Of a stretch of 64,000 bases of DNA, positions 21,197 to 61,403 are shown in pieces. The notes beneath the pieces are model-generated. The model was not told where the DNA came from. It saw only the letters and a program-made list of their open reading frames with translations, and made no database searches. Source of the stretch: Mucilaginibacter aurantiaciroseus (lineage in GTDB: Bacteria; Bacteroidota; Bacteroidia; Sphingobacteriales; Sphingobacteriaceae); contig NZ_JAMXOF010000003.1 of assembly GCF_024055595.1 (NCBI RefSeq), positions 124,001 to 188,000 on the forward strand, in the 5' to 3' direction. The position numbers and the translations under genes were made by a program. How positions within the stretch are numbered: position 1 is the stretch's first letter; each line of letters starts with the position of its first letter.

Positions 21197-21242
21197 AAAT
21201 ACTGGTTGTTTTTTGCAGCGCGAAGCTGGATAGTAATGCTGT

Positions 21243-26482: not shown

Positions 26483-26586
26483 AGGTGAAATAGTTGCTTG
26501 TCGCGGTTGATTGGATGCGCGGCAAAATAAACAGGATTGTAAAAATGGTCGGCGCGCTTAATAGCAGGCCGACCATTCATTTAAGG

Positions 26587-27648: not shown

Positions 27649-27689
27649 TTTTTATATTTTTAAAAAATAGATACATATTTATAAATAAG

Positions 27690-27725
27690 ATACAGGCAGG
27701 TACGCCTAAACGGGCCTGCCTGTAT
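27690..27725 (-). terminator. Intercistronic hairpin between susD and susE-like genes
   Basis: Perfect 11-bp arms ATACAGGCAGG / CCTGCCTGTAT with a 14-nt loop lie 4 bp after the susD stop. No long T run follows on the minus strand, so it is more likely an mRNA-stability or attenuation hairpin than a full terminator. Confidence 0.5.
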
Positions 27726-27728
27726 GTT

Positions 27729-29309: not shown

Positions 29310-29349
29310 ATCGCTTTTTTTTAGCTGTTTATGTTACTATACGAATGAT

Positions 29350-43511: not shown

Positions 43512-44738
43512 TTAATGCAAAGACAATAACCTCTTTCTCACAAGCAAACAAGCCCCTATGATACCAGCATGTTTGCCTAATTGTGATAGTCTGAGTTGAG
43601 TATCATTATTAACCAAGCTTAAAGAGTATTTATTAATGGCACTTTTAATGGGAAGGCGTATATACTCGCCGGTTTGGGCCAAACTTCCACCCAATATAAC
43701 TAACTCAGGATTAAATATATTAATGAGTAATGCGATACCGCGACCAATATTTCCGCCAATTTCAGCTATTAGTTCTATGGCCAAAACATCATCATTATTG
43801 GCAGCCTTTATCACATCTTCCATTTGTATCTCTTCTCCCTCGCCTTTTTCTTCAAAAAGGATTGATGAAGAGCCTTCTTGCATCTTTTGTTTAACCATTC
43901 GAGCGAGCGCCCAACCAGATGCTTCAGTTTCGAGGCAGCCTTTTTTGCCGCAGTGGCATAGTATTTCGTTATCAAATAGTGGAATATGGCCAAATTCGCC
44001 CGAATATCCCGATTTGCCATAATACAATTGCCCGTTTATTAGTATTCCCAACCCTATTCCGTAATCTATATTAAGAAATAGTACATCTTTTTCTCCTTTT
44101 ACTATGCCTGAACTAAATTCGCCAAATGCCATAGCGCGCGAATCGTTTTCTAAAAACACCTTTATACCAACCTTCGATTCAATGATCTTGCTTAATGGCT
44201 CTTCGCTAAAATTAAAAAAGCTGTAGCTGTAACCAGTAGCGTAATTAACCCGCCCCGAAATATTGATACCTATACCCAGAATTTTATCCTTGGGAATAGG
44301 GAGTTCCTTTATAAAGGTATTTATCAATTGGCACAATGTTTCCAACGATTCTTTATTGTTCTCCAGCTTATAAGATATCTTTTCGGCAACTTTAACCAGA
44401 TTTTTTTGCAGATCAGACAGTGCTACATTGATATATCTTTGGTTTATATCAACCCCGATAAAAAACGCGGACTCTGGCAGCAACCCAAATAAGTTTGGTT
44501 TACGCCCGCTTTTTGACTCTACCTTACCGTAATCCTGTACTATACCATCCTGTATAAGATCGTTCAAAACTGCAGTCATCTTCGGCACGCTTATGTTTAA
44601 CTCTTTAGCCAGATCAGCTATCGTAGCATCGCTCACATTAGCAAAGTAACCTAATATGCTTTTTTTAAGGTTCAGATTTTTATATGCTACACCAGTAGCG
44701 CTTTCGTTATTTAACTCTTCAAAAAATGTTTTACCCAT
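43512..44738 (-). CDS. ROK-family transcriptional repressor
   Basis: 408 aa. An N-terminal winged helix (~25-80, ATIADLAKELNISVPKMTAVLNDL) is joined to a ROK sugar-binding domain (~88-405). The domain has the phosphate-binding DINQRYINVALSDL, the zinc-binding C-H-C-x4-C in EILCHCGKKGCLE, and GGNIGRGIALLINIFNPELVILGG. NagC/Mlc-type repressors of this kind respond to a sugar or sugar phosphate. It is divergent from the second PUL (341-bp gap), which it probably represses; a palindrome lies 31 bp before its start. Confidence 0.92.
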   Translation of the reverse strand: MGKTFFEELNNESATGVAYKNLNLKKSILGYFANVSDATIADLAKELNISVPKMTAVLNDLIQDGIVQDYGKVESKSGRKPNLFGLLPESAFFIGVDINQRYINVALSDLQKNLVKVAEKISYKLENNKESLETLCQLINTFIKELPIPKDKILGIGINISGRVNYATGYSYSFFNFSEEPLSKIIESKVGIKVFLENDSRAMAFGEFSSGIVKGEKDVLFLNIDYGIGLGILINGQLYYGKSGYSGEFGHIPLFDNEILCHCGKKGCLETEASGWALARMVKQKMQEGSSSILFEEKGEGEEIQMEDVIKAANNDDVLAIELIAEIGGNIGRGIALLINIFNPELVILGGSLAQTGEYIRLPIKSAINKYSLSLVNNDTQLRLSQLGKHAGIIGACLLVRKRLLSLH

Positions 44739-45079
44739 TGGTTATACTTTATTACACTGTGATAAGGTTTTTTACGCCGTAAAATTAATATAAATCTACA
44801 AAAAAGAGCTTCTATTTTTAATAGTAACCAATACCTTACAATTACTTATTAAAATATTTTAATTATTATTTGCTTATTATTAATTTTTTTTATTACTTAG
44901 TGCTTTCTAAGATACAGTACAATATCCTGTAAAATAAATCATTAGTAGAATAATGCACACGTAAAGCATTCTATTAACAAATATTAGCCTGACTTTAATC
45001 ACAAAACAGGCGAATCTGTTAAATTATTTTTTTAATAAATAGTTCTTAATTAGTTAAAATATTAAATAGCCTAATAATC
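44739..45079. promoter_or_regulatory. Divergent regulatory region between ROK gene and second PUL
   Basis: Very AT-rich. It contains a perfect palindrome TTTTACG-C-CGTAAAA (44770-44784), a candidate ROK operator, and an inverted repeat TACAG-N8-CTGTA (44914-44931). No gene present. Confidence 0.45.
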
Positions 45080-46219
45080 ATGAGGAAAATTTTACTATCA
45101 ACCATTATGTTATGTTTTATCATAGCAAGTTCATGCAAAAAAAACGAGGGTGCCAACCCTTATGACCCTAACACAAAAATTACAGTATCGGTTGTGCCGA
45201 AAGTTATATCGTTTGCGCCGTTAACTGGCAAAACCGGCGATATTGTAGAAATCAGCGGATCGAATTTTACAGGCGCCACTGCTGTTACTTTTGGCAACAA
45301 GCCCGCAGCCTCTTTTAAAGTGAATTCAGACACTAGCATAACTGCCGTTATTGGCGAGGGCTCAACAGGCACTGTAAGCGTAACAAATACAAAAGGCACT
45401 AAGGCACTAATTGGCTTTACATACATTCCACCTGTAGTTGTGGTTGAGAATCCGAATCTGGCACTGAATAAACCCGCAACAGCTTCGACAAGCTTTAATG
45501 ATCCCGGATTGTCAGTAGACGGCAATCTTGGAACACGCTGGTCTATTGCCGCAGCAACAGAACACGAGTGGTACAAGGTTGATTTGCTAACAGTAAAAAA
45601 AATTAACAGAATTGATATAAAATGGGAAGGTGCCTACGCCACTGATTATGCCCTACAGGTATCAATTGATAACGTAAATTTCACTACGGTGTATGCAACC
45701 TCAACGTTTACAGGTGGTGACGGAAGCAACAGTTTTCCTGCGGTAAATGCCCGCTATGTTAAAATATTACTAAACAAAAGCGCATTGCCTTACCCAATGT
45801 CGTTCTGGGAGTTTGAAGTATATGCAGATGCGCCGCCGATTAATTTGGCTTTAAACAAAACAGCGACGGCATCAACAAGCTTTAATGCCGAAAGCCTTTC
45901 TATTGACGGAAATTTAGGAACCCGATGGTCGTTAGCGGCAGCTACTGAAAATGAGTGGTATAAAGTTGATCTTGGTAAAGTTGAAAACATTGGCCGTGTA
46001 GATATTAAATGGGAGGGTGCCTACGCCACCAATTATGCATTACAGGTTTCAACTGATAATGTAAAATTCACCACTGTTTTTGCAACGTCAACCTTTACTG
46101 GTGGTGACGGAAGTAACAGTTTTCCTGCGGTAGATGCGCGGTATGTAAAAATATTGCTGATTAAAGGTGCGTTGCCTTATCCAATGTCATTCTGGGAGTT
46201 TGAAGTGTATAAAAAATAG
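45080..46219 (+). CDS. Lipoprotein with IPT/TIG domain and two F5/8-type-C domains
   Basis: 379 aa; lipobox IASSC with Cys19. An IPT/TIG Ig-like domain (~35-115, APLTGKTGDIVEISGSNF) is followed by two discoidin-like carbohydrate-binding modules (~122-250 and ~252-379) that are near copies of each other (both with DGNLGTRWS, IKWEGAYAT, YPMSFWEFEVY). No catalytic domain. It probably binds glycans at the cell surface, as SusE/F-type proteins do in starch loci. It is the first gene of the second PUL and is followed by a terminator-like hairpin, so it may be transcribed partly on its own. Confidence 0.88.
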   Translation: MRKILLSTIMLCFIIASSCKKNEGANPYDPNTKITVSVVPKVISFAPLTGKTGDIVEISGSNFTGATAVTFGNKPAASFKVNSDTSITAVIGEGSTGTVSVTNTKGTKALIGFTYIPPVVVVENPNLALNKPATASTSFNDPGLSVDGNLGTRWSIAAATEHEWYKVDLLTVKKINRIDIKWEGAYATDYALQVSIDNVNFTTVYATSTFTGGDGSNSFPAVNARYVKILLNKSALPYPMSFWEFEVYADAPPINLALNKTATASTSFNAESLSIDGNLGTRWSLAAATENEWYKVDLGKVENIGRVDIKWEGAYATNYALQVSTDNVKFTTVFATSTFTGGDGSNSFPAVDARYVKILLIKGALPYPMSFWEFEVYKK

Positions 46220-46237
46220 ATTTAGTTAGATTAGTTT

Positions 46238-46271
46238 GGCATACCGCACATGAGAGCGGTATGCCTTTATT
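46238..46271 (+). terminator. Terminator-like hairpin after the first PUL-2 gene
   Basis: Perfect 10-bp arms GGCATACCGC / GCGGTATGCC, 8-nt loop, then TTTATT. It may attenuate read-through into the following lipoprotein gene. Confidence 0.65.
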
Positions 46272-46286
46272 AAACACACAATCGTG

Positions 46287-47903
46287 ATGAAAAAAAGCAT
46301 CTTTACAATAATAATAGTTAGCTTGATAGGCATCGTTAATGCCTGTAAAAAAGAGCAGCATCCGGGTAAAGTCCCTATAACAGACAGCACAGTTATAAAG
46401 CCGGAAGAGTCTGTTGCCTCAAATATATATGATTCGGTAATAAATAATCAGGTGCGATATATACTTGCCGCCCAAATGCCAAGCGGTGCTTTAAAGGATA
46501 ATCAAGAATCTAACAGCAGGATATGCGGATATTTTGCCAACATATCCTGCCGTGCTTTGCTCAAAAAACCTACCGCTGATAATGTTGCTGCGGTAAAAAA
46601 GTATATGGCATGGTACATGAGCAAACTTAACGGTAGCGTAAACCCCATAACTGGTAAGCCCGAAGTACCGGGCTCGGTATATGATTACTTCGCCCCCGCA
46701 GAAAGTACAAAAGGGACGTATGATTCGGTAGATTCATACGCTGCTACATTTTTATCATTAGCTAAAGAACTGGCCGCTTTATCGCCAGCTGATAAAGCCT
46801 GGGTAGCAGGGTATTCTGTGCAACTTACCTTAATTGGCTCGGCGATGGAAAAATGCATTGATAATTCGGATAATAGTATACCCATTGGATTTACCCCCGA
46901 TGATAATGACGGTCTGTCGATTGATTCGTATGTTCATGGTGCTAAGTATGCTATGGATAATTCTGAAGTTAACGAAGGGCTAAAATCCATGATTTGGCTA
47001 CAAGTTCAAGTATTAGGTGGTTCAAAAACCGCACATTTTCAAAACTTGTTAGATGTTAATACCAGTGCTATTGAAAGCCAGTTATGGCGTGGAAACAGGT
47101 ATAACTGGAATGATGATGGCAGCACCGGTGCAAGTATTTCCAAATGGTCTAATTTTTATGCTGACGCTACCTGCCAGCTATATCCGGGGCTATTTGGTGT
47201 TATTGATCCCTTGTCCCCACGCGCAAACCTGCTGTACAGCACATTTAATGTGAATTACCCGGCTTGGTCTAACGGCACAATATACTCTGGTGCATACCCG
47301 TGGGCTGTAATATGTTATGCCGCTGCTGTGCTTAACGATAAAGCAAGGGTTGACGAATATATAAAACATATCCTGGCACTAAATAAAGCTGGTAAGCAGA
47401 AAGATAACTGGTATAATGCTGAGGCCGCGTTTGTAATACTGGCCGCAGATAAGATAAAGAACCAGGGCAATAATGCAATTTTTATCCCTACACCAGTTGC
47501 CACAGATCCACCTATTGACGATAAAGGCAATCTTGCTTTAAATAAAACAGCCACTGCATCAAGTAGCTTTAATGCCGAGAGCTTGTCTGTTGATGGTAAT
47601 CTAGGAACACGTTGGTCTACTAAATTAGCTACTGATAACGAGTGGTTTAAAGTTGACCTTGGTGCGATAAAAAATATAAGCCGGGTAGATATAAAATGGG
47701 AGGGTGCATACGCAAGCGATTATGCGTTACAAGTGTCAACCGATGACGTCAAATTTATTACTGTGTTTGCAACCAGTACAAGTAAAGGCGGAGATGTAAG
47801 CAACTCTTTTGCTTCGGTAAATGCGCGGTATGTAAAAATACTACTTAACAAAGGCGCATTGCCATACCCAATGTCATTTTGGGAGTTTGAGGTGTATAAA
47901 TAA
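46287..47903 (+). CDS. Lipoprotein: uncharacterised helical (toroid-like) domain plus F5/8-type-C domain
   Basis: 538 aa from the ATG at 46287 (GTG one codon earlier). Lipobox IVNAC (Cys20). The large central domain (~50-395) is rich in helices with conserved acidic/aromatic blocks: TYDSVDSYAATFL, TPDDNDGLSIDSYVHGAK and NWYNAEAAFVILA. This is suggestive of an (alpha/alpha)6 toroid such as glycoside hydrolases or lyases use, but no known family could be named. The C-terminal discoidin module (~405-538) is nearly the same as those of the upstream gene. It shares its domain plan with the next gene, its paralogue. Possibly a novel surface glycosidase or lyase. Confidence 0.82.
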   Translation: MKKSIFTIIIVSLIGIVNACKKEQHPGKVPITDSTVIKPEESVASNIYDSVINNQVRYILAAQMPSGALKDNQESNSRICGYFANISCRALLKKPTADNVAAVKKYMAWYMSKLNGSVNPITGKPEVPGSVYDYFAPAESTKGTYDSVDSYAATFLSLAKELAALSPADKAWVAGYSVQLTLIGSAMEKCIDNSDNSIPIGFTPDDNDGLSIDSYVHGAKYAMDNSEVNEGLKSMIWLQVQVLGGSKTAHFQNLLDVNTSAIESQLWRGNRYNWNDDGSTGASISKWSNFYADATCQLYPGLFGVIDPLSPRANLLYSTFNVNYPAWSNGTIYSGAYPWAVICYAAAVLNDKARVDEYIKHILALNKAGKQKDNWYNAEAAFVILAADKIKNQGNNAIFIPTPVATDPPIDDKGNLALNKTATASSSFNAESLSVDGNLGTRWSTKLATDNEWFKVDLGAIKNISRVDIKWEGAYASDYALQVSTDDVKFITVFATSTSKGGDVSNSFASVNARYVKILLNKGALPYPMSFWEFEVYK

Positions 47904-47998
47904 ATGTAATGCCGTATCGCATAGTTATCATAAAAAGTAATTCAACTATATTATAATTAATTCACGCAATATATAAAACCTTATAATACACACAAATT

Positions 47999-49570
47999 AT
48001 GAACCCATTATTAAAAAAAACACTCACACTTGGCTTCGCCTCAAGTATGCTTCTATCCTGTCAAAAAGGGCAATTGCCGTCGGGCAAAGCGGACGTAGCA
48101 AACCAACCTGGCATCAATACTAAAACTGTTCGTTTAAATGCAACTGCGGTTAATTATTCAACTATTATTACCAAACAAATCAACTTCATCCTTGCAGGCC
48201 AGTTGCCATCAGGGGCTATGATGAATACATCGGTACCCGGCAGCAGAATATGCGGTTATTTTGGAAATATTGCCTGCCTCGGCGTACTCGAAGCTCCCAC
48301 TGCCACTAATCAAACAGCCGTAAAAAATTGGATGATTTGGTATATGGGCAAGCTAAATGGCACTACAAATCCTGTAACAGGAAAATCCGAAGTAGCCGGT
48401 TCGATATACGACTATGCTGGCTCGGCCGAAACAACTAATGGCACTTATGATTCGGTAGATTCTTACGCGTCAACATTTTTAATGTTAGCAAAGCGTTATG
48501 GTGAATTGTCTGCAGCTAACAGAACATGGCTTGCGGGCTATTCGTATCAATTAACGCTTATTGGTAATGCGTTAATGGGGTGTATGGATAATTCTAGCAA
48601 TAGCATTCCTACACTTTATACTCCTGACGATAACGATTGGCTTACTATTGACTCGTATGTGCATGGAGCCAAGAACTTGATGGACAATGCCGAAACGAAC
48701 CAAGGGTTAAAAGCAATGGTTTGGTTACAAAGCAACGTAATTACTAATGGTAACCCTGCTTATTATTCAAGCGTTTTAACATCCAATACTAGTGGTATCG
48801 AAAGTCAGTTATGGCGCACAACCATGTACAATTGGAACGATAACGGTACCACAGGTGCAACTATGTCAAATTGGGCTACCTGGTATCCCGACGCTGTATC
48901 CCAGCTGTATCCCGCTATGTTTGATGTGATAGCACCAACATCTGCCAGGGCAGCTAGTTTATACGGTACGTTTAATACCAAATACGCCACTTGGTCAACC
49001 GGGTTTGTGAATGATCCATCCGGCTTTCCTTGGGCTGCAGTAAGCTATGCCTCGGCTAAAATGAGTGATTTTAGCCGCACAAATTCGTATTTAACATATC
49101 TGGATAGTTTTGCGGGCACTACACAGCCAAATAACTGGTACAATCTCGAAGCAGGGTTTGCCATACTCGCGGCAAAAATTGCAAGCACAGCACCGGTTAA
49201 TTTAGCCCTAAGCAAAACAGCAACGGCTTCATCAAATACAACTAGTGCAGGCAACTCAAACGATGGGGATTTAGGGACAAGGTGGTCAAGCGCAGTTGCC
49301 GATAACGAATGGTGGAAAGTTGATCTGGGTTCGAACAAAACGGTTAGTAAGGTAATTATTAGGTGGGAAGGGGCTTATGATACTAACTACTCCATACAAA
49401 CTTCTGTAGATGATGTAACTTATACTAATGCTTACAACACAACAATTGGCGATGGAGGTGATGATGTGATAACATTTAACGCAACTACTGCACGCTATGT
49501 AAAAATATTATGTACCACGCGCGTACAACCTTTGTGGGGATCGTCCTTTTGGGAAGTCGAGGCTTATTAA
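47999..49570 (+). CDS. Paralogous toroid-like/F5/8-type-C lipoprotein
   Basis: 523 aa; lipobox MLLSC (Cys21). Same layout as the upstream gene. The helical domain (~45-390) has the blocks TYDSVDSYASTFL, TPDDNDWLTIDSYVHGAK and NWYNLEAGFAILA conserved. The C-terminal discoidin domain (~395-523) is more diverged (RWSSAVADNEWWKV, SSFWEVEAY). Conservation of Asp/Tyr/His blocks between paralogues points to a shared active or binding site. Catalytic status is unknown. It lies 145 bp upstream of susC. Confidence 0.82.
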   Translation: MNPLLKKTLTLGFASSMLLSCQKGQLPSGKADVANQPGINTKTVRLNATAVNYSTIITKQINFILAGQLPSGAMMNTSVPGSRICGYFGNIACLGVLEAPTATNQTAVKNWMIWYMGKLNGTTNPVTGKSEVAGSIYDYAGSAETTNGTYDSVDSYASTFLMLAKRYGELSAANRTWLAGYSYQLTLIGNALMGCMDNSSNSIPTLYTPDDNDWLTIDSYVHGAKNLMDNAETNQGLKAMVWLQSNVITNGNPAYYSSVLTSNTSGIESQLWRTTMYNWNDNGTTGATMSNWATWYPDAVSQLYPAMFDVIAPTSARAASLYGTFNTKYATWSTGFVNDPSGFPWAAVSYASAKMSDFSRTNSYLTYLDSFAGTTQPNNWYNLEAGFAILAAKIASTAPVNLALSKTATASSNTTSAGNSNDGDLGTRWSSAVADNEWWKVDLGSNKTVSKVIIRWEGAYDTNYSIQTSVDDVTYTNAYNTTIGDGGDDVITFNATTARYVKILCTTRVQPLWGSSFWEVEAY

Positions 49571-49714
49571 GCCTGTCTAATTCGCTACAAGCTCTGGTGT
49601 ATTGAGAGAAAATAAATAATCTAATAGGTTATATAATAATTATCCATCATAAACAATATGCCAGGGCTTTAATTCTACGCCCTTTTTAATGCAAACTATT
49701 TAACATGATATGAA

Positions 49715-52700
49715 ATGAAAGAAATTTTTACTAATAAAAAAAAACTATTGAGCTTTATAGCAGTACTACTTATGATGGTGTGCGGCCAGCAAGCAATGGC
49801 TCAAGCTCAGAATGTAACAGGCCAGGTAATTGATATGAGCGGATTGCCGCTACCGGGTGTAACCGTATCTATAAAAGGGACAACGAAAGCTATTGCCACC
49901 GATGCAAACGGCAAGTTTCAGATACAAGTAGCGCCCGGCGAAAACACCCTCTCGGTAATGATGATGGGCTTTACAAGTAAAACTTTAATCGTTAAAGGCG
50001 GGCAGGATGTAAAAATAGCTTTGGAGGTTACTATGTCTGACCTGAAAGAGGTTGTTGTTGTAGGTTACGGTTCTATAACAAAAAAGGAAATTACCGGTGC
50101 TGTATCAGTAATAAAAGGCAGCCAGGTAAATAATATGCCGGTGAGTAGTGTAGCAGACATATTGCAGGGTAAGGCAGCGGGCGTAACTGTTTCGCAAAGC
50201 AGCGGTAGCCCAGGTTCCGCATCGGTAGTGCGTATAAGGGGCATTGGCTCAATAAACGGCAGTACCGACCCATTGTACATAGTTGATGGTTTACCGCAAA
50301 CAGACATCAACTATTTAAATCCTAATGATATTGAAAGTATTGCTATACATAAAGATGCATCAGTAGCTGCCATTTATGGTTCAAGGGCTTCTAATGGCGT
50401 AATTATTGTAACCACCCGGTCGGGCGCAAAAAACGAGAAAGTGGTTATTTCTTATGATGGTTATTATGGCTTCCAGTCGCCCTGGAAGCGGCCACAAATG
50501 CTAAACGCACAGCAATTTATCTCTTACAAAAATTTGGCGGCAACTAACGCAGGGGCGGTTAAGCAATTCGACTTTTCTACACAGACCAATATAGATTCGG
50601 TATTGCGTTTTGTTGGCGCAAATACCGGGCCTAACGGCACCGACTGGTGGAACGAGATAACCCGTTACAATGCTCCGGTGCAAAGCCATAATATCAGTGT
50701 AAGCGGGGGCGGAAAAGACGTTAGTTTCTTATCAAGCCTTGCATACCTCAATCAAAAAGGCATTATAGCTGGCTCGGACTATGAGCGGGTATCTTGGCGG
50801 AACAATGTAAATGCACAAGTTAGTAAACGCGTTAAGTTAAGTACCAATTTAGGTTTGATATACGAAGGCCGCCGTACTGTTGATGAAAACAACCCATTTA
50901 CCGGTACCATTTTCAGCGCTATGACGGCCGACCCAATAACACCTGTATATCGCAATAATCTACAGGGATTGCCTTCGTTCTTAAACATAATTAACTCAGG
51001 TTACGAGCCTACTAATCCATTCTCGCAGTATTCGGGCCTGTTGTACTCAAATAAGCGCAACCCTGTTGCGCAGATAGAAAGGCTGCGCCAAAGTAATTTC
51101 GAGAATTTAAGTATAAAGGGTGGTATCACTGCCGATATACAAATATTAAAAACGCTTAGTTTTCAAAGCCGTGGCGGGATGGATTTGCAGCGCGCCTTAT
51201 CAAAAGGCTTTTCGCCGCAGTATTACTTAAACGCGTTTGATAATGCTAACACCAATACAGTTAGTAATTACTCATACACTACTAATTATTTTGTGACAGA
51301 AAACACCCTGAACTACGATCAAACCTGGGGTAAATACCATTTAACAACCTTAGGAGGTGTATCTGCCGAAGCAACAAATGTATCGCAGTTTGGCGCATCC
51401 ATACAAGGGTTTGTAAATAATGATGTTGATATGCGGGTTATAAGTGCGGGTACCATTAACCCACAGGTTTCGGGTTACCCATACGGAAATTCAATTGCAT
51501 CATATTTTGGCAGAATTGGGTTTGATTACAATGGTAAATACATTGTTGCAGGTAATATACGCCGCGATGGGTCATCGCGCTTTGCCGATGGCTATCGCTG
51601 GGGTACTTTCCCTTCTGCATCGGCAGCATGGCGTTTTACCGAAGAAAATTATTTTAAAGATAAACAAAGCAACTGGTTAAGTGATGGTAAATTAAGGGTA
51701 AGCTATGGTTTAATAGGCAACCAAAACATTGGTGGTGGTGCTTATTTATCTACTTATGGTAGCAGCATTTATGATCGGTATGAGTTTGGAAACGAAAACA
51801 CACCTTTCATAGGGGCCGGCCGCCAATCCACGGGTAACACGGTTTTGAAATGGGAAACTTCCAAACAATTAGATATCGGTTTGGACCTATCGTTTTTTAA
51901 TGGTAGACTAAACTTGGCAGCCGATTATTTTGATAAGAAAATTGACAATATGCTACTAATAGTGCCCTTGCCAACTACATTGGGCTATCCAACTTCGCCG
52001 TACTCAAACGCTGGAAATATGCAAAATAAAGGCTGGGAATTTGAGTTGGCCTATAACAACAATATTGGTGCATTTAAGTATAGCGTAAACGGTAATATAT
52101 CCGCATATCGAAATAAGGTTACAAAATTGGGTAATGGCGAACCGATATTTGCTACCGCGCACTTAGGCGAGGTATTTACCAAAACAGAAGTAGGCATGCC
52201 GGTGGGTTATTACTACGGTTATAAAACTAATGGCATATTCCAAAATGCAAAGCAAGTAGAGGACGGCCCCCAACGGGAAACCGCGTCGCCCGGAGATATC
52301 CGCTTTAAAGACATGAACGGCGATGACGTAATTGATGCTAAAGACCGTACGATGATAGGTAACCCATGGCCTGATTTTGTATACGGTTTAACCATGAACG
52401 CGTCGTACAAAGGTTTCGACCTGAGCGTATTTTTCCAGGGTTCGCAGGGAAATGACGTAATGAACATACAGCGTTACGATACCGAATCGGGCACAGGCTA
52501 TTACAATGCTACCAAAGGCTTTCTCGAAAAATCATGGAGCGGCGAAGGCAGTACAGATAAGTATCATAAAATATCGCAAAAACAAGGGCTTAACAACAGC
52601 GTTTCTGACTATTTTGTTGAAGACGGCTCTTACCTGCGTGTAAAAAATGTGCAATTGGGCTACAATTTTGCCAATACTTTTTTACAGAAGCTAAAGATGA

Positions 52701-52864
52701 AACAGTTTAGAGTTTATGTAGGTGCGCAAAACCTGTTTACAGTTACTGGTTATTCGGGGCTCGATCCTGAGATAGGCTCGGCAGATCCTAAACTTACCGG
52801 GATAGATCAGGGATATTATCCACAAGCAAGAACATTCATGATAGGCATCAACGCAAAATTCTAA
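49715..52864 (+). CDS. SusC-like TonB-dependent outer-membrane transporter (second PUL)
   Basis: 1049 aa. Signal peptide (cleavage near AMAQ, ~30), carboxypeptidase-regulatory-like domain (~33-110, VTGQVIDMSGLPLPGV), TonB-dependent plug (VVVVGYGSITKKEITGAV, DPLYIVDGLPQ) and beta-barrel ending in INAKF. It imports the oligosaccharide released by the linked lipoproteins. susD follows after 10 bp. Confidence 0.96.
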   Translation: MKEIFTNKKKLLSFIAVLLMMVCGQQAMAQAQNVTGQVIDMSGLPLPGVTVSIKGTTKAIATDANGKFQIQVAPGENTLSVMMMGFTSKTLIVKGGQDVKIALEVTMSDLKEVVVVGYGSITKKEITGAVSVIKGSQVNNMPVSSVADILQGKAAGVTVSQSSGSPGSASVVRIRGIGSINGSTDPLYIVDGLPQTDINYLNPNDIESIAIHKDASVAAIYGSRASNGVIIVTTRSGAKNEKVVISYDGYYGFQSPWKRPQMLNAQQFISYKNLAATNAGAVKQFDFSTQTNIDSVLRFVGANTGPNGTDWWNEITRYNAPVQSHNISVSGGGKDVSFLSSLAYLNQKGIIAGSDYERVSWRNNVNAQVSKRVKLSTNLGLIYEGRRTVDENNPFTGTIFSAMTADPITPVYRNNLQGLPSFLNIINSGYEPTNPFSQYSGLLYSNKRNPVAQIERLRQSNFENLSIKGGITADIQILKTLSFQSRGGMDLQRALSKGFSPQYYLNAFDNANTNTVSNYSYTTNYFVTENTLNYDQTWGKYHLTTLGGVSAEATNVSQFGASIQGFVNNDVDMRVISAGTINPQVSGYPYGNSIASYFGRIGFDYNGKYIVAGNIRRDGSSRFADGYRWGTFPSASAAWRFTEENYFKDKQSNWLSDGKLRVSYGLIGNQNIGGGAYLSTYGSSIYDRYEFGNENTPFIGAGRQSTGNTVLKWETSKQLDIGLDLSFFNGRLNLAADYFDKKIDNMLLIVPLPTTLGYPTSPYSNAGNMQNKGWEFELAYNNNIGAFKYSVNGNISAYRNKVTKLGNGEPIFATAHLGEVFTKTEVGMPVGYYYGYKTNGIFQNAKQVEDGPQRETASPGDIRFKDMNGDDVIDAKDRTMIGNPWPDFVYGLTMNASYKGFDLSVFFQGSQGNDVMNIQRYDTESGTGYYNATKGFLEKSWSGEGSTDKYHKISQKQGLNNSVSDYFVEDGSYLRVKNVQLGYNFANTFLQKLKMKQFRVYVGAQNLFTVTGYSGLDPEIGSADPKLTGIDQGYYPQARTFMIGINAKF

Positions 52865-52874
52865 TTTAAAAAAA

Positions 52875-54473
52875 ATGAAAAAAATATTATATATCACCCT
52901 TTGCATTACCCTGCTGGCAGCCGGCTCATGTAAAAAAGATTTCTTAAACCGCCCTCCGCTAGGCGTTCAAACAGAAGAGAACTTTTATAAATCGCGAGAT
53001 GCTGGTTTAAGAACTTTAGTAAAATGCTATCAGGTATTTAATGATGCATATGGGTATGAAGCGCCCCGTGCAGAACTTGGCAACATGGCTACAGACGATA
53101 GTGAAAAAGGTGGAGGAGACGCCGGTGACCGACCCTTTGTAACCGATTTGGGTTATGGCAGGGCATTGTCAAGCAATCCGTCGCTACAGTCCGATTGGGC
53201 AACACATTACCAGGGCATAGGTAACTGTAACGTAGCTTTAGAAAATTTACCTGTGAATGAATTGATAGATGCTGCCGGAGCAAAAGTAACCGCCAATACA
53301 AAGGCCCGCTACCTGGCCGAAATTAGATTTATACGGGCATACTTGTATTTTGAACTTGTAAAAACATTTGGTGGTGTCCCTCTTTTGGACAAAACACTAA
53401 CCGTTAACAATGCCAATAAATTAAAACGTGCAACAGCAAAAGAGATATTTGAATTTATTGCAAAGGAGCTTGACGCTGTTGCGGCAGAAACCAGCTTGCC
53501 CGGAAAGAACGGGATGGATTATGACAAAGAAGCCGGGCGTGTTAATAAAGAAGCCGTGTGGGCTATGCAGGCGCGAGTTTACCTATATTTTGCAAAGAAT
53601 GATAACGGCCTGTTTGCCAAAGCAAGGGATGCAGCCAAAAAAGTTATTGATGCCAATGTCTATTCGTTAGACAAGCAATTTCAGGATCTGTATTTAGTAA
53701 ATAGTTATAAAACACAAGAGCCTATATTCTCGATCATAAAGGGCGATAATGCGGCTTCGAACATTTATGGCGCGTTTACCCCTCTTTATACTTCTCCGCG
53801 TGGGCCAACAGGTGCTTACGGATTCGACACCCCAACACAAGATCTGGTAAGTGAGTTTGAACCCGGTGACCCGCGTTTGTTATTCACTATTATTGAACCT
53901 GGGGATGCTTTTCCAAAAGCATCGGGGCAGGAAGTATTAAATTTCTCGTCGTATCCAAATACTGGTTTTCATAACCGTAAATCTTATCTGACTCCGTTAA
54001 GGCGCGGCCCTGGCTTTGGCGATGATGCCTGGACTTTTCACCTGATACGCTACGCTGATGTATTGCTAATGTATGCTGAGGCCGTATTAGAAAGTGGCGG
54101 TGATAAGCAAACTGTTGCTAATTACATTAACATGATAAGGCAAAGGGCCAGTAACTCAACCCGTACCGATGCTGAAGCTGTTAGTCGGGTTCGCACCATT
54201 GCTAACACGCCTTTACCTGATGTTACAGTAGGTGCTGACCTAAGAGTGGCAGTAAGGCACGAGCGCCGTATTGAGTTTGCAATGGAATACCAACGCTTGT
54301 TTGACCTTCAAAGATGGAACAACTATATCGAAACAATGAATAATTATGCAGGCAAACCCGGTTCAAATGGCAAAGGTGCTGCATTCAAAAAAGGCATTAA
54401 CGAGTTGTTCCCTATCCCGCAAGCAGAAATCGACCGTTCGGGCGGATCAATAGTACAAAACCCAGGATATTAA
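52875..54473 (+). CDS. SusD-like glycan-binding lipoprotein (second PUL)
   Basis: 532 aa; lipobox AAGSC near residue 20. RagB/SusD features: DFLNRPPLGVQTEENFYKS at the N-terminus, RFIRAYLYFELVKTFGGVP in the TPR region and the C-terminal RHERRIEFAMEYQRLFDLQRW with a final NPGY. It is the lid partner of the preceding SusC. Ligand unknown. Confidence 0.95.
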   Translation: MKKILYITLCITLLAAGSCKKDFLNRPPLGVQTEENFYKSRDAGLRTLVKCYQVFNDAYGYEAPRAELGNMATDDSEKGGGDAGDRPFVTDLGYGRALSSNPSLQSDWATHYQGIGNCNVALENLPVNELIDAAGAKVTANTKARYLAEIRFIRAYLYFELVKTFGGVPLLDKTLTVNNANKLKRATAKEIFEFIAKELDAVAAETSLPGKNGMDYDKEAGRVNKEAVWAMQARVYLYFAKNDNGLFAKARDAAKKVIDANVYSLDKQFQDLYLVNSYKTQEPIFSIIKGDNAASNIYGAFTPLYTSPRGPTGAYGFDTPTQDLVSEFEPGDPRLLFTIIEPGDAFPKASGQEVLNFSSYPNTGFHNRKSYLTPLRRGPGFGDDAWTFHLIRYADVLLMYAEAVLESGGDKQTVANYINMIRQRASNSTRTDAEAVSRVRTIANTPLPDVTVGADLRVAVRHERRIEFAMEYQRLFDLQRWNNYIETMNNYAGKPGSNGKGAAFKKGINELFPIPQAEIDRSGGSIVQNPGY

Positions 54474-54476
54474 CAT

Positions 54477-54510
54477 TATTGGCAGGGCGTTGCACTACTC
54501 CCTGCCAATA
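54477..54510 (+). terminator. Hairpin after susD of the second PUL
   Basis: Perfect 11-bp arms TATTGGCAGGG / CCCTGCCAATA, 12-nt loop, then TATATAG. It may reduce expression of the following genes relative to susCD. Confidence 0.55.
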
Positions 54511-54536
54511 TATATAGAGACATAATTTTTATAGAT

Positions 54537-55958
54537 ATGAATGCATACAAATTGGCAATACGGGTTATTATATTTCTCGTAGTTATTAGCACATTTGCCT
54601 TTGCAACACCGCCGGGTACTGCCAAACCCGAGATTAGCCTTACACTCATTCCTCCATCGCCGGTAACCGACCAGGTAACCCTTGATGTACGGGCTGGGAT
54701 ATGGAATAATACCACTGCCAAAAAAACCATATATGTTTTATTTTACCTGGATAAAGTGGCAAAGGGAAACCTGTTGCACCAACAAACCTTAATCCTTGCA
54801 GCAAAATCAAACGGCTGCGTAAAGTTTCCGTGGTCGACTCGAAATATGGCTGGTAAGCATAAAATAATATTGGTTACCAAATCGGGCAAAAAAGTTTTAT
54901 GTAAGGAACGCCCTATGCAGGTACTGGCATCAAACATCCGCTCAACCCGACGGGTTGACGGGGCATGGCTGGGCTTTTATCATTGGAGCGAAGCGGAAGG
55001 TAAATTTTGGAATCCTGAGCTAAAAAAAGCAACCGATGAACAATGGGGCGAAATGATGACCGCACAACACGCGCTCGAAATGAATATAATTGTTATTCAG
55101 GATGTTGTCCGTAATCCAACTGAATATGCAGGAAAGCATAACATTGAGAAGGATGGCTACAAAGGCGTTCCTTATTACCCCTCAAACCTATTTCCAGGGC
55201 ATGTACCGATAGCGGCCGTTGATCCGTTGGAAGCAGTGCTGGCAGCCGCGGATAAGAATGGCATGAATGTTTTTATAGGTGTGGGTTCGTATGCCTGGTT
55301 CGATTTTACTAATGGTTCGTTAGAATGGCATAAAAAAGTTGCCGATGAGCTGTGGGAAAAATATGGTCACCATGATTCATTTTACGGCTGGTATGTTAGC
55401 GAAGAACAGGATGGAGGACTTGGCGACGCGCAGGCAAGAAAAGATATTGTGCATTTTTTTAAAGAATTTAAGGCGTATGTTAATAAAATAGCCCCTGATA
55501 AACCGGTTATGCTCGCTACAAATTCGCATAATGTAGGCAGCGCTATCGATACTTATCGTAAACTGCTCCCTAATTTGGATATTTTGTGCCCGTTTGGATT
55601 TCACCGCATGCCCAGTACCGATTTTACTGGTGAACAATCTGCCAATAAGTTACAGGAATTGTGCAACGAAGCGGGCTCCCACCTTTGGATGGATATGGAA
55701 GTATTTGATTTTGCCGATGGCAATGCATTAGTACCGCGCCCGATCAATGGATTACTGAGTGATCTGCACCGATTCCCAAATTTTGAAAAAATAATTTGCT
55801 ACCAATTTACCGGCTTGTTAAATAGCCCAACGAGTTCGATCAAACCGGGAGGCCCTAATACGGTAAAACTATACCTTGATTATAAACAATATCTCGACTC
55901 CATTACTACCCCTTTACAGAACTTAAAAGGCGGTACCAACATACCTATCCATAAATAG
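54537..55958 (+). CDS. Secreted DUF4434-type TIM-barrel protein, putative glycosidase
   Basis: 473 aa with a signal peptide (~1-23, TFAFA). An N-terminal Ig-like domain (~28-135) precedes a DUF4434-like barrel (~140-460). The barrel begins VDGAWLGFYHW, has IVIQDVVRNPTEYAG, and carries acidic candidates in FYGWYVSEEQDGG and LWMDMEVFDF at strand ends where glycosidases place catalytic Glu/Asp. DUF4434 proteins are suspected glycoside hydrolases with no assigned substrate. It is 63 bp after susD and 25 bp before the epimerase, so it is part of the operon. Confidence 0.78.
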   Translation: MNAYKLAIRVIIFLVVISTFAFATPPGTAKPEISLTLIPPSPVTDQVTLDVRAGIWNNTTAKKTIYVLFYLDKVAKGNLLHQQTLILAAKSNGCVKFPWSTRNMAGKHKIILVTKSGKKVLCKERPMQVLASNIRSTRRVDGAWLGFYHWSEAEGKFWNPELKKATDEQWGEMMTAQHALEMNIIVIQDVVRNPTEYAGKHNIEKDGYKGVPYYPSNLFPGHVPIAAVDPLEAVLAAADKNGMNVFIGVGSYAWFDFTNGSLEWHKKVADELWEKYGHHDSFYGWYVSEEQDGGLGDAQARKDIVHFFKEFKAYVNKIAPDKPVMLATNSHNVGSAIDTYRKLLPNLDILCPFGFHRMPSTDFTGEQSANKLQELCNEAGSHLWMDMEVFDFADGNALVPRPINGLLSDLHRFPNFEKIICYQFTGLLNSPTSSIKPGGPNTVKLYLDYKQYLDSITTPLQNLKGGTNIPIHK

Positions 55959-55983
55959 AAATAATACAATTTATACTGCTATA

Positions 55984-57171
55984 ATGAACATATTTGAATA
56001 CCAAGAGATATATCGCGCCAACTTATTAGACAGCGTGGTGCCTTTTTGGGTTAATAACTCAGAGGATAAAGAATACGGCGGCTTTTTTACCTGCCTTGAC
56101 GAAAAAGGGGAAGTTTACGACACCGATAAATTTATGTGGCTGCAATGCCGCCAGATATGGACACTTTCCATGCTTTATAACCAAGTAGAAAAGAAACAGG
56201 AATGGCTGGATATGGCTATACGTGGGGCCGAGTTTGTTAAAAATAACGGACGCGATGCCGAAGGCAACTGGTATTTTTCACTAACCCGCGAAGGGAAACC
56301 GATTACGCAGCCCTACAATATCTTTTCGGATTGTTTTGCGGCCATGGGTTTTGCCCAGCTTTATACAGCTACCAAAAACGAAGAATATAAAGCGATTGCC
56401 CTAAACACATTTTACAATATCCTTAAAAAGCGCAACGATAGTAAGGGCATCTATAACAAGCAAGTCCCTGGTACACGTCCGCTTCAAAGTTTTTCATTAC
56501 CTATGATACTGTGCAATTTGGTATTGGAGCTGGAACATATACTTAAACCAGAACTTGTTGAGGAAACCATACAACTGGGTATTCACTCGGTAATGGATGT
56601 TTTTTACAAGCCCGAATTTGGTTTGATATTGGAGAATGTTGCTCCGGATGGTAGTTTTGTAGATTCGTTTGAAGGCCGTTTGGTAAATCCGGGCCATGCA
56701 ATTGAATCCATGTGGTTTATTATGGATTTGGCTTCGCGCGCGGGCGATAAGCAATTGATAAAGAAGGCTGTTGATATAACCATTGACACGATTGAGTACG
56801 GCTGGGACAGACAGCATGGCGGTATATTTTACTTCCTCGATGTAAAAGGGAATCCGCCACAGCAGCTTGAATGGGACCAGAAATTATGGTGGGTACATAT
56901 TGAAGCCGTCATCAGCCTTTTAAAAGGGTATTATTTTACCGGCGACGAAAGATGCTGGCAATGGTTTGAAAAAATACATGCCTATATCTGGAAACATTTT
57001 GTTGATGACAGGAATGGCGAATGGTTTGGCTACCTTAACAGGCGTGGCGAAGTGCTGCTGCCTGCAAAAGGTGGGAAATGGAAAGGTTGCTTCCACATCC
57101 CCAGAGGGTTATATCAAGGCTGGAAGGTACTGCAGGCAATAGAAGAAAAACGTAGTGTTTTGCACCGATAG
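55984..57171 (+). CDS. AGE-family sugar 2-epimerase (N-acylglucosamine 2-epimerase-like)
   Basis: 395 aa, cytoplasmic (no signal), (alpha/alpha)6 barrel. AGE-family motifs are present: WLQCRQIWTLSMLYN near residue 50, LVNPGHAIESMWF and KLWWVHIEAV, with the catalytic His pair in these last two, and FHIPRGLYQ near the end. Members interconvert GlcNAc/ManNAc, or glucose/mannose units in disaccharides. The length favours a monosaccharide or N-acyl sugar epimerase, but the substrate cannot be fixed from sequence alone. It starts 25 bp after the DUF4434 gene and is 9 bp from the MFS gene. Confidence 0.88.
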   Translation: MNIFEYQEIYRANLLDSVVPFWVNNSEDKEYGGFFTCLDEKGEVYDTDKFMWLQCRQIWTLSMLYNQVEKKQEWLDMAIRGAEFVKNNGRDAEGNWYFSLTREGKPITQPYNIFSDCFAAMGFAQLYTATKNEEYKAIALNTFYNILKKRNDSKGIYNKQVPGTRPLQSFSLPMILCNLVLELEHILKPELVEETIQLGIHSVMDVFYKPEFGLILENVAPDGSFVDSFEGRLVNPGHAIESMWFIMDLASRAGDKQLIKKAVDITIDTIEYGWDRQHGGIFYFLDVKGNPPQQLEWDQKLWWVHIEAVISLLKGYYFTGDERCWQWFEKIHAYIWKHFVDDRNGEWFGYLNRRGEVLLPAKGGKWKGCFHIPRGLYQGWKVLQAIEEKRSVLHR

Positions 57172-57180
57172 AAAAATAAC

Positions 57181-58437
57181 ATGGCTATATTACAAGTACA
57201 AACAACAGTTATCGAGGAAAGTGTTAACCAGCAAAAACAGAATTATATACCGGCGCTTGTTGCATTAGGTGTACTCTATTTTATGATGGGGCTAATCACC
57301 TGCTTAAATGATACCCTAGTGCCTTTTTTTAAGAGTGGTTTTACCCTTAGTTACGCCCAATCATCATTGGTGCAATTCTACTTTTTCTTAACTTATGGTA
57401 TTATGTCTATCCCGGCAGGTAAGGTGGTTGAAAAAGTAGGATATAAAAAAGGCATGGTGCTGGGTTTCTCCATTGCAGCTGTCGGCGCTATTTTATTTTT
57501 CCCTGCCTCAATTTTGCATATATATGCCTTGTTTTTGGCTGCTTTGTTTATAGTGGCAATAGGTATTGTTATATTACAGGTGGCGGCCAACCCCTATGTT
57601 ACCGTCTTAGGGCCCGCCAAAACCGCGTCTTCGAGGTTAACTATGGTACAGGGGGTCGGCTCAATAGGCACCACCGTAGCTCCAATATTAGGTTCGTATT
57701 TTATCCTCTCGCAATTAAGTAATTCACATGGTTCAAGCGAGGCTGTACGTTACCCATACCTGGGTATTGCCGTTATGCTAATACTTATTGCGTTCACGGT
57801 TTCGCGATTAAAATTGCCGATTATAAAAACACTCGGCAGCCAGCAGATAGCCCAACATGATGATCAAACTAAAAGTGTATTCTCATTTCGTAACCTAAAT
57901 TTCGGAGCAATAGCAATATTTTTATATGTTGGTGCGGAGGTATCAATCGGTACTTTCCTAACCAACTACGTATCAGATATATTGAAGATAGGTATAAAAG
58001 ATTCCAATACTTATGTGGCTTTTTACTGGGGCAGCATGGTAGTGGGCCGTTTGCTGGGTGCATTGCTTTTAAAAATAATTAAACCCTCTTACGTATTATC
58101 AATATGTGCAGCAATCTCAATTTTTTTAATTGTCTTTTCTGTAACAAATACAGGGCAACTTGCTATTTGGAGTATGATTTCAATAGGCTTTTTTAACTCG
58201 GTAATGTTTGCAATCATATTCTCACTATCAGTAAATGGTTTGGGTAAATATACCACGAAGGCATCAGGTATCCTATCTACAGCAATTGTAGGTGGGGCTA
58301 TTATTTCCTTTACACAAGGCCTATTAATTGATCATTTTACTTGGCCAATAGCTTTTATGCTCCCTTTGTTATGTTATCTGTATATCCTGTTTTATGGGTT
58401 AAACGGTTATCGCTCTAAATACAACTCTGCAACCTGA
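57181..58437 (+). CDS. Sugar MFS permease (FucP/GluP type)
   Basis: 418-aa inner-membrane carrier with 12 TM segments. Typical FHS/FucP-family features are FMMGLITCLNDTLVPFFK in TM1, the GKVVEKVGYKKGMVLG loop and VAANPYVTVLGP in TM4. It probably imports the monosaccharide that the epimerase then converts. Last gene of the second PUL. Confidence 0.92.
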   Translation: MAILQVQTTVIEESVNQQKQNYIPALVALGVLYFMMGLITCLNDTLVPFFKSGFTLSYAQSSLVQFYFFLTYGIMSIPAGKVVEKVGYKKGMVLGFSIAAVGAILFFPASILHIYALFLAALFIVAIGIVILQVAANPYVTVLGPAKTASSRLTMVQGVGSIGTTVAPILGSYFILSQLSNSHGSSEAVRYPYLGIAVMLILIAFTVSRLKLPIIKTLGSQQIAQHDDQTKSVFSFRNLNFGAIAIFLYVGAEVSIGTFLTNYVSDILKIGIKDSNTYVAFYWGSMVVGRLLGALLLKIIKPSYVLSICAAISIFLIVFSVTNTGQLAIWSMISIGFFNSVMFAIIFSLSVNGLGKYTTKASGILSTAIVGGAIISFTQGLLIDHFTWPIAFMLPLLCYLYILFYGLNGYRSKYNSAT

Positions 58438-58857
58438 AATTAACGATCCCTTTTAGACATGCCGTCATTTAACTAAAAATCAGGAAGGATATAGTTATTC
58501 AGAATTAACTAAGTCACGTGAAATTCATGTCGCGGCTTGAGACCGTTGCAAGTGCCATTATCGAAGCAGTTGAAAAATTATTGGGGCTTAATTTCGCTCT
58601 GTGCCGTTTCTAATTATCCGCATGCCGGTATCGGCATGCGGTATTTTCTAAAAATTCATTTTTTGGCTACGAAAGCAGAGCGGCTTTTTGCTTGTTATAC
58701 TTATTCGCAACAATATAACAAACCGGCGAAACCAATGCCCCTACCCACCCCAAAACCGAACCTCCTATGTTCGCTTCCGTTACAGCAAAACATATTTATC
58801 ATCGCATAATTTTGTAAATGTCAATATGTTGTAAATTTAAAATAGCCTTAGGGGAAT
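58438..58857. other. Intergenic region with a strong terminator
   Basis: Short frames occur but none is convincing. It contains the hairpin at 58618-58648. Confidence 0.5.
58618..58648 (+). terminator. Terminator downstream of the second PUL
   Basis: Perfect 10-bp arms CCGCATGCCG / CGGCATGCGG with GTAT loop, followed by TATTTTC; 180 bp after the MFS stop. Confidence 0.7.
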
Positions 58858-59357
58858 TTGAATTACTTGAATCCTAATATATTCCATATTAACCTTTACC
58901 ATGTGGCCGACATGGTAACCCTGTTTTCGGGGTTTACACTTGCGCTGCTTTTAGCATTCTCAAAAAGGGAAGGCCGAGTAGCCAACCTGTTTTTAAGTGC
59001 CGCTTTAGCTGTAATTGTACAGAAGACTGTCAGGCTTTCGCCGATTTTTTTACCGTTGCTTTTGTGCTTATTGGCGTTGCCGCCGAAGTGATGCTAAAAC
59101 GGAATAGCAGTACACAACTGGCCACCCCGATAACAGATAGATATGATGCAAAGGAAAAATGCCGCAGGCTAAAAGAAGCCGTAGCCGCAAACTGCCTTTA
59201 CAAGGATGTCGAACTGGTATTGACCGCCCTGGCAGTAACGCTAAATATCCATCCGCACGATTTATCGCAGATCATTAATGTGGGAATGGAAAAGAACTTC
59301 CGTTACTTTATTAATGAGTTCAGGATTCGTGAAACTGCCCGGAAGATGAGACTATAA
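58858..59357 (+). pseudogene. AraC-family regulator remnant with internal deletion and frameshift
   Basis: The first frame (58858-59091) encodes the membrane N-terminus common in Sphingobacteriaceae AraC proteins (FHINLYHVADMVTLFSGF, FLSAALAVIVQKTVRLS). After a frameshift and the loss of the middle, a second frame (~59064-59357) encodes the start of the DNA-binding domain (CLYKDVELVLTALAVTLNIH, IINVGMEKNFRYFINEFRI). The second HTH helix pair is missing. Non-functional. Confidence 0.7.
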
Positions 59358-59359
59358 GC

Positions 59360-60190
59360 GAGAATAATTGTTTTTATGCAGACATTGCATTCTTTGATGT
59401 GTTTACATTACCTATGATTGCGGGCGATGCTAAAAGTGCTTTATCACATATCCATTCGTTGGTAATTTTAGAGAAAATCGCAAGAAAATATTTTAACAGT
59501 ACTGATGTGATAGGTAAAACGATGCATCTGGATAATACATCTGACTACCAAATCACAGGAGTAATCGAAAATATACCGGTACAGTCCTATTTGCATTTTG
59601 CTTTTATCAAATAAATGAATTACCGGATAGAAATTTTCCTGATTGAAGTAATGTATGCTATATCACCTATGTATTAGCAATACCTGGTGTTAATCAAAGC
59701 GCATTACACAATTCCCTCCGAGAGGCGACAAAAAAATATGCGGAACCTGTTTTGTTAAGAGACCTTCATCGTTCATTTCCGGAACTCGGAAAGAACGGCG
59801 GCCATTTTAGGAACATTACGACGCCCCTTAAAAAAATTCATCTATACTCTCTACATTAACAGATGAACAAGAGCCATCGGGTAACGCACTGTATGTCTAT
59901 ATATTTACGGTAATCGCCATTTTTATATTATTAATCGCCTTTATTAATTTCATGAACCTTTCAACAGCCCAGGCTGCCGGCCACGTAAAAGAAGTGGGGA
60001 TTAGAAAGGTTCTGGAATCTGATAAAGCCCCGTTACTTAGCCAGTTTCTAATTGGATCATTCACAACAAGCTGCTTAGCGGTAATTCTTGCTAGCGCTTT
60101 TAGTTACTTAACGATTGGAATAAGGTATGGCTGTTCAATGGATTATAAAGTAAAATCTAAATATTTATTAACAGCTTTCTGTAAATGATT
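59360..60190 (+). pseudogene. FtsX/MacB-type ABC permease remnant
   Basis: Broken frames in order match the periplasmic and C-terminal parts of Bacteroidota FtsX-like permeases: FFDVFTLPMIAGDAKSALSH and KTMHLDNTSDYQITGVIENI (59390-59614), a middle part with PLKKIHLYSLY (~59690-59860), then IAIFILLIAFINFMNLSTAQ and GHVKEVGIRKVLESDKAPLL (~59900-60187). The N-terminal TM and final TMs are absent. Placement right after the AraC remnant suggests one former AraC-permease fusion or a deleted two-gene unit. Confidence 0.75.
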
Positions 60191-60722
60191 GAACTCGTTA
60201 ATTTATTAATGAAGGCGCACTGAATCATTTTGATATTGATAAAGCTATTTATTATTAAGCAATCAGGCAAAAAAATGTAGTATCCTATATGAGTCGTTAG
60301 CTTTGGGGTTAATATTCCCTTTACATAAATTTTATGTTATGCGTTTTATGCCATACAAAACTTAGTCGTCAGACTACAGTTTTTAAAGTAAAAAGAAAAG
60401 CTATCGACCAGTTTGCTACCTCTTCATTTTTTTATTTTACTTTCAGCAAATAAGGGGTGAACTTTAACTTACATCTACCCAATTATTTCTTTTAAAGAAT
60501 TAATATTATTTCCGCCAAAATATAATTGCTCATTACTGTTGTTTTACGGCGTATCGTGTCAAATTAAAAGCAATTTTTTTTTATTATTAAACAGTATCTA
60601 TTCGCGTAAATAAGCCATTTAACAGGTTCAGGGTATTATTATCAATAAGTTATTAAAACGCTGACAGACTATTTAGCGGTAAATCAATACGGGGCACTTG
60701 CTTTGCAAGTATCATTGAGAAT
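60191..60722. other. Non-coding region upstream of the AraC gene
   Basis: AT-rich, no gene recognised. It may include the promoter of the following gene; CTTGCTTTGCAAG at ~60699-60711 is an imperfect palindrome close to the start. Confidence 0.4.
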
Positions 60723-61289: not shown

Positions 61290-61403
61290 AACTTATTTAA
61301 ATAATTGTATAACATATCCGGCCAATACTCCGGTAAATTTGTACTATACCAAACTCTGCCTATTAAGTTGGCGGCGCTAACAACTAATATTAAAAAAACT
61401 TTT

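Follow-up and report, generated by a model that had tools for sequence, protein, structure and literature searches.

How a glycan could be utilized through a polysaccharide utilization locus (PUL) without established degradative enzymes is the question raised by the genes at positions 43512-58437 of a 64,000-nucleotide stretch of Mucilaginibacter aurantiaciroseus DNA (NZ_JAMXOF010000003.1 positions 124,001-188,000; this whole stretch is referred to as the window). According to the initial annotation, either the substrate arrives already cut or the locus encodes new degradative enzymes. Our analysis favours the latter, in that two paralogous lipoproteins, here termed HelA and HelB, are most likely surface hydrolases of an undescribed family. 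We propose, at roughly even odds (probability about 0.5), that the locus is a PUL for an N-acetylhexosamine glycan, most likely one that contains N-acetylmannosamine (ManNAc) with or instead of N-acetylglucosamine (GlcNAc). The glycan would be captured by SusD and by a lipoprotein that combines an IPT/TIG-like region with CBM32-like carbohydrate-binding modules (CBMs), and would be cut at the surface by HelA and HelB, each of which carries a predicted (alpha/alpha)6 domain and a CBM32. SusC would import the resulting oligosaccharides, from which a periplasmic, clan GH-A-like DUF4434 protein would free monosaccharides, and a NagP-like permease would move the N-acetylhexosamine into the cytoplasm. 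There, an N-acyl-D-glucosamine 2-epimerase (AGE) would convert ManNAc to GlcNAc, which would enter the ordinary GlcNAc pathway (kinase, NagA and NagB), with a ROK-family protein presumably serving as a sugar-responsive repressor on a conserved 60-bp element.

Open reading frame (ORF) lists and library searches place nine genes at the locus, at the same coordinates as in the initial annotation. The ROK regulator, SusC, SusD, AGE, FucP-like permease and DUF4434 protein that it listed are all present, with their identities confirmed by family matches. Eight of the genes lie on the forward strand. The first encodes the IPT/TIG-like lipoprotein (45080-46219), a putative surface glycan-binding protein with two F5/8-type-C stretches (Pfam F5_F8_type_C E=2.2e-43) and a weak TIG match. 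It is followed by the genes for HelA (46287-47903; F5/8C E=2.5e-20) and HelB (47999-49570), for a SusC-like TonB-dependent transporter (49715-52864; TIGR04056 E=1.7e-269) and for a SusD-like lipoprotein (52875-54473; Pfam SusD_RagB E=3.9e-42). The remaining three encode the DUF4434 protein (54537-55958; PF14488 E=1.9e-37), the AGE (55984-57171; NF052547 E=4.4e-209) and a major facilitator superfamily (MFS) sugar permease of the GluP/NagP/FucP type (57181-58437; TIGR01272 E=2.4e-83, fucP 1.5e-59, NagP 1.4e-57). The start of HelA is the ATG at 46287, the GTG at 46284 being a mechanical ORF call. As read from the sequence, lipoboxes are present in the 45080 protein (..ASSC), HelA (..VNAC), HelB (..LLSC) and SusD (..AGSC), the DUF4434 protein has a signal peptide without a cysteine, which fits a periplasmic location, and the AGE and the regulator have no export signal. 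The adjacent SusC and SusD genes, the co-directional accessory and enzyme genes, the regulator and the synteny found elsewhere bear out the earlier designation of the locus as a second PUL. The SusC/SusD pair, surface binding lipoprotein, exported candidate enzymes, inner-membrane permease and divergent regulator are shared with Bacteroidota PULs in general. However, an established glycoside hydrolase (GH) or polysaccharide lyase (PL) family, which is usual in such loci though not strictly required, is lacking in this copy, and cutting would fall to the helical family and the DUF4434 protein.

A scan of ~85,000 species genomes for the helical domain of HelA and HelB, which works with exact peptide patterns only and cannot be taken as exhaustive, yielded three loci. 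These are in a Pedobacter metagenome-assembled genome (MAG; L008), a Prolixibacteraceae MAG (L009, with the rest of its PUL on contig L015) and a Bacteroidales MAG (L010; whole contig L016). The helical family occurs in one other species among 201 genomes of the taxonomic family, and nothing beyond the query genomes was found in 395 genomes of the phylum or in 393 genomes of the order of the Prolixibacteraceae MAG; the family is very rare. Within the limits of the contigs, the three loci have the gene order (ROK)-IPT/CBM32-HelA-SusC-SusD in common; in the Prolixibacteraceae and Bacteroidales MAGs the DUF4434 and AGE genes come next. Chance is ruled out by such synteny across three independent genomes. 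HelB is present in the window only, with no copy beside HelA in any of the three loci. A distant homologue, a 393-residue predicted lipoprotein that is 25% identical to the helical domain, is encoded on a megaplasmid of Cupriavidus sp. P-10 (L005 11710-12891) without a CBM or SusC/SusD. In two further Bacteroidota genomes the helical profile gave weak matches that were rejected, as L003 contains no matching gene and the match in L006 is to a different protein in another context. In the Prolixibacteraceae MAG a XylE-like sugar porter gene (L015 3217-4632) directly follows the AGE gene, in place of the NagP-like permease.

The absence of a classical GH, as initially annotated, is upheld for the locus in this genome but not for this type of PUL, as the orthologous locus in the Bacteroidales MAG includes a GH2 gene. 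None of the nine window proteins matches a GH or PL family in Pfam (2025) or NCBIfam (2026), libraries that do not comprise the CAZy/dbCAN models. This is not a failure of sensitivity for ordinary families, since the same libraries immediately detected GH13 alpha-amylase/pullulanase domains in the other PUL of the window (19289-32361). HelA and HelB, which are 50% identical, had already been described as two helical lipoproteins of no known family; to this we add that each ends in a CBM32, which had been missed. The helical domain of ∼355 residues (∼46407-47471 in HelA) has no match in Pfam, NCBIfam, PHROGs or PADLOC, nor were any matches obtained among viral structures or viral and phage sequences in follow-up searches at the locus. 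An AlphaFold2 model based on five sequences (pTM 0.76, mean pLDDT 66.9) has 12 alternating helices, and the domain is predicted to form an (alpha/alpha)6 toroid. Many glycosidases and lyases have this fold, and such toroids are usually enzymes.

A Foldseek search of the model against the PDB gave no match at E<0.001. The top seven matches (E 0.014-0.067, TM about 0.55) are all GH15 isomaltose glucohydrolase structures (5z3a-5z3e, 7c24 and 7c25). Entry 5z3a is a GH15 enzyme (PMC12446779), an inverting isomaltose glucohydrolase from Kribbella, and the titles and mutant names suggest that the other six represent the same enzyme. Most of the later matches are to mixed (alpha/alpha)6 enzymes. It is therefore conceivable, if improbable, that an existing (alpha/alpha)6 glycosidase family, GH15-like or GH8-like, includes HelA and HelB as strongly diverged members, GH8 coming into question because the motif DSxDSYAxxFLSLA loosely resembles its signature. 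However, the helical domain shares the barrel with the Kribbella enzyme at 11% identity and without a sequence relation, there is no Pfam match to GH15 or GH8, and a helical profile compared with the sequences of all PDB chains gave nothing at E<0.1 (best E=0.28). Kinship with GH8, considered on account of a DxxDxxA motif, was rejected with an hhalign probability of 0 against 14 Bacteroidota GH8 proteins. The Foldseek result thus appears to support the predicted fold of the helical domain rather than membership of a family, and neither this domain nor the DUF4434 domain was assigned to a characterized GH or PL family by the sequence-profile and structure searches that were run.

More specific indications of catalysis come from conserved residues. 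Asp106, Asp109, Asp184, Glu187, Asp236, Asp311 and Glu339 (numbered in the modelled domain, residue 1 being at window position 46407) are invariant in all six known members of the family, and persist even in the 25%-identical Cupriavidus homologue. Asp106 and Asp109 lie within the motif DSxDSYA, and Asp184 and Glu187 within DNxExxxGL. In the model, several of the invariant acids appear to be on long loops, of low confidence, that precede every second helix, which is the usual active-site face of such toroids. No histidine is invariant across the six members. HelA and HelB might instead be lyases that form a new (alpha/alpha)-toroid family and act on a polymer of amino sugars and uronic acids; the weak Foldseek matches do include PL38 and further (alpha/alpha) lyases. 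We consider this improbable: the invariant residues include many carboxylates, and every version of the PUL lacks both a GH88/GH105 unsaturated-uronyl hydrolase and any gene of a uronate pathway. The latter, together with the lack of an invariant histidine, favours a hydrolase over a lyase.

If the substrate instead arrived cut, HelA and HelB could be SusE/F-like surface glycan-binding scaffolds, each a helical platform with a CBM32, and only the DUF4434 protein would be catalytic. The CBMs of HelA (47529-47900) and of the 45080 protein are 75-84% identical within the Sphingobacteriaceae lineage and probably have the same ligand, and a separate surface glycan-binding protein could have duplicated. 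Yet a binding protein, the IPT/CBM32 lipoprotein, is already part of the PUL, conservation of the helical domain is at least as strong as that of the CBM and extends to the invariant Asp and Glu residues, and the Cupriavidus homologue keeps these acids where there is neither SusC/SusD nor a CBM. Together with the enzymatic nature of most (alpha/alpha)6 toroids, this makes a purely binding function unlikely, though somewhat less so than a lyase function. New enzymes are thus preferred to a pre-cut substrate, given that HelA and HelB are surface lipoproteins with CBMs, have a predicted (alpha/alpha)6 fold with acids invariant down to 25% identity, and that HelA belongs to every version of the PUL.

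The second candidate enzyme, the DUF4434 protein, has an N-terminal beta-rich domain and scores 129.8 bits against PF14488 (gathering score 30). It belongs to a divergent subgroup, with 131 bits compared with 235-304 bits for ordinary Bacteroidota members. Two glutamates, in GWYxxxE and WxxxE, are invariant in 11 of 11 DUF4434 members; as judged from the sequence, they may sit where strands 4 and 7 end in a clan GH-A barrel, which we regard as a lead and not a result. The nearest structure, PDB 4h41 (E=4.8e-6, a distant relation), is a putative alpha-L-fucosidase by entry name only. It is of the same family and both presumed GH-A-like glutamates are also found in the window protein, but the latter falls in a distant subgroup with an export signal and the additional N-terminal domain. 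A model made from two sequences had a pLDDT of 41.5, too low for a fold search. Literature searches returned no mention of DUF4434, the only matches being to the string 4H41 in what are apparently strain or sample names. We infer that this protein is most likely a periplasmic hydrolase.

The substrate is approached through the epimerase. The AGE exceeds the cut-off of the NF052547 equivalog (694 versus 600 bits) and aligns with PDB 6f04 at E=1.8e-160. Its residues Arg56, Phe114, Ile175, His238, Glu241, Trp366 and His371 are conserved relative to that structure; in 6f04 numbering, Arg58, Glu243, Trp368, His373, Phe116 and Ile177 are kept, and Ala173 is replaced by Ser. Phe116, Ala173 and Ile177 of 6f04 constitute the N-acetyl pocket, and such a pocket would explain the inactivity of a related AGE on glucosamine (PMC6333288). 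The initial annotation had read the epimerase as a sign of either an N-acylhexosamine or a mannose-type unit. The former is supported, in that this is a true AGE with most of the N-acetyl pocket retained, and mannose is disfavoured.

In sialic acid catabolism by Bacteroidetes, an epimerase converts ManNAc to GlcNAc ahead of RokA (PMC3969230). The nan loci concerned (NanO/NanU, NanA, epimerase and RokA) share with the window SusC/SusD import, a ManNAc/GlcNAc epimerase and an MFS permease. However, the window SusD scores 52 bits against a NanU cut-off of 425, no sialidase is encoded in the locus and no NanA-type lyase over the cut-off is encoded in the genome, where the best match (116 versus 382 bits) has a score typical of related lyases such as DapA. 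For want of NanA, sialic acid is an unlikely source of ManNAc and was rejected as the substrate. The genome does have a strong NagB homologue, 20 kb outside the window. Given the ManNAc-to-GlcNAc route, the lack of a sialate lyase and the presence of NagB, the most economical explanation is a ManNAc glycan other than sialic acid, and the substrate is probably an N-acetylhexosamine glycan.

Further indications are provided by genes of the orthologous PUL in the Bacteroidales MAG. On contig L016, the AGE gene is followed by genes for a SIS-domain protein, a ROK kinase, a GH2 protein and a permease; the opposite strand carries a gene for a SASA-type esterase. The SIS protein matches the isomerase domain of GlmS, or the GlmD type. 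The GH2 protein is closest to the exo-beta-D-glucosaminidase CsxA (PDB 2vzo, E=2e-61), which it resembles in overall alignment and in an Ig_GlcNase domain (2.5e-24). Subfamily GH2_16, to which CsxA belongs, is defined by a Glu at the C2/C3 position and by SD in place of NE (PMC12243196). The L016 protein has this Glu but has NE where SD is strictly conserved; it is therefore not a GH2_16 member, and exo-beta-glucosaminidase was rejected as a firm name for it. It lies near the group that holds all the C2-modified activities (mannosidases, hexosaminidases and glucosaminidases). As judged from sequence, the SIS protein, the kinase and the GH2 protein point to C2-modified amino sugars and would strengthen the case for a substrate that is an amino sugar or manno-configured, but would not define it.

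Both this locus and the CBMs also bear on a substrate of chitosan or another glucosamine-rich polymer, rather than a polymer of ManNAc and GlcNAc. The CBM32 modules are closest to those of a Paenibacillus chitosanase/glucanase (E=6.5e-25 to about 1e-24), the L016 GH2 protein has exo-beta-D-glucosaminidase as its closest relative and carries the GH2_16 Glu at the C2/C3 site, and the SIS protein is related to the glucosamine-6-phosphate deaminase GlmD. On the other hand, an AGE of a type described as inactive on glucosamine (PMC6333288) would be useless in such a pathway, the GH2 protein departs from the SD motif, and no chitosanase family is present. Chitosan is accordingly a very doubtful substrate.

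Several observations weigh against an N-acetylhexosamine PUL with HelA and HelB as hydrolases. The loops of the helical model have pLDDT values below 50, and the Foldseek matches are weak, the best (E=0.014) having a root mean square deviation of 7.8 Å. The AGE reaction is reversible. Among what we take to be the four chitosan-contacting residues of the Paenibacillus CBM32, Arg31 and Glu61 are retained whereas Glu14 and Glu36 are absent; with only two of four in place, the ligand is not transferable. An Ig_GlcNase-containing GH2 of the M. aurantiaciroseus genome itself, which is in another PUL and was not counted as evidence, adjoins a GH26-like gene, so the Ig domain alone is not diagnostic of amino sugars.

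As a tentative extension, it is possible that HelA and HelB represent a new (alpha/alpha)6 GH family that depolymerises a bacterial polysaccharide containing ManNAc, either from the envelope or an exopolysaccharide, with this DUF4434 subgroup as the matching periplasmic exo-hydrolases. To our knowledge no dedicated PUL for ManNAc polymers is known apart from the sialic acid loci, and literature searches found none. Should HelA and HelB prove to be enzymes, a new CAZy family would be established and, with it, a way into the degradation of bacterial glycans rich in N-acetylhexosamine, against which few enzymes are known. The hypothesis lends itself to direct testing through the conserved DUF4434 glutamate pair and the AGE.

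The distribution of the PUL suggests how it was acquired. Window proteins are mostly 62-78% identical to the PUL proteins of the distant-order MAGs, with lower values (52-55%) for the ROK regulator and the IPT protein, and SusC is 77% identical to its L009 orthologue. Between G000 and G586, two of these genomes, GlmS is 61% identical, compared with 77% for SusC and AGE. Horizontal transfer of the PUL is thus likely, and a DDE transposase gene upstream of the Prolixibacteraceae ROK regulator (L009 5617-6630) is consistent with it. An intact and probably horizontally spread PUL that automated CAZyme annotation would score as enzyme-free is a typical blind spot. The CBMs may have a history of their own: orthologous CBMs of the IPT protein are only 50-57% identical across lineages, less than the likeness between the 45080 and HelA modules within one lineage (76-82%), which suggests concerted evolution and a shared ligand. 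The Pedobacter MAG contains a second, reduced cluster (L017 7494-11569) comprised of ROK, AGE and permease genes and a 34-residue remnant match to DUF4434, which suggests a PUL that has decayed to a cassette for uptake of free sugar.

The regulator gene (43512-44738, reverse strand) is divergent from the rest of the PUL and encodes a NagC/Mlc-like ROK-family transcriptional regulator with an N-terminal winged helix (Pfam ROK E=8.7e-60, HTH_24 3.5e-5); orthologues occupy the same place in L008, L009 and L017. The intergenic region between the ROK and IPT genes contains a conserved element of ∼60 bp (44841-44908) with TTATTAA repeats and ATTACTTAG. Its local alignment scores are 71 with L008, 55 with L009 and, in part, 52 with L017, values reached by none of 500 dinucleotide shuffles. 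The element overlaps an inverted repeat (44839-44872) that is 82% complementary, and is a candidate ROK operator or promoter.

Elsewhere in the window, positions 19289-34658 encode a classical starch PUL with three GH13-type enzymes, an MFS protein, SusE/F-like, SusD and SusC proteins and a DUF6377 protein. Between the helical-family PUL and the next gene downstream, positions 58440-60700 contain no ORF of 100 residues and resemble what is left of broken genes, such as one for a MacB-like permease. That next gene (60723-61289) encodes an AraC-type regulator and precedes one for a large protein (61305-63440) with a Big_5 domain, four InlB-type repeats and a C-terminal ice-binding domain (PF11999 E=4e-67), which suggests that the organism is cold-adapted.

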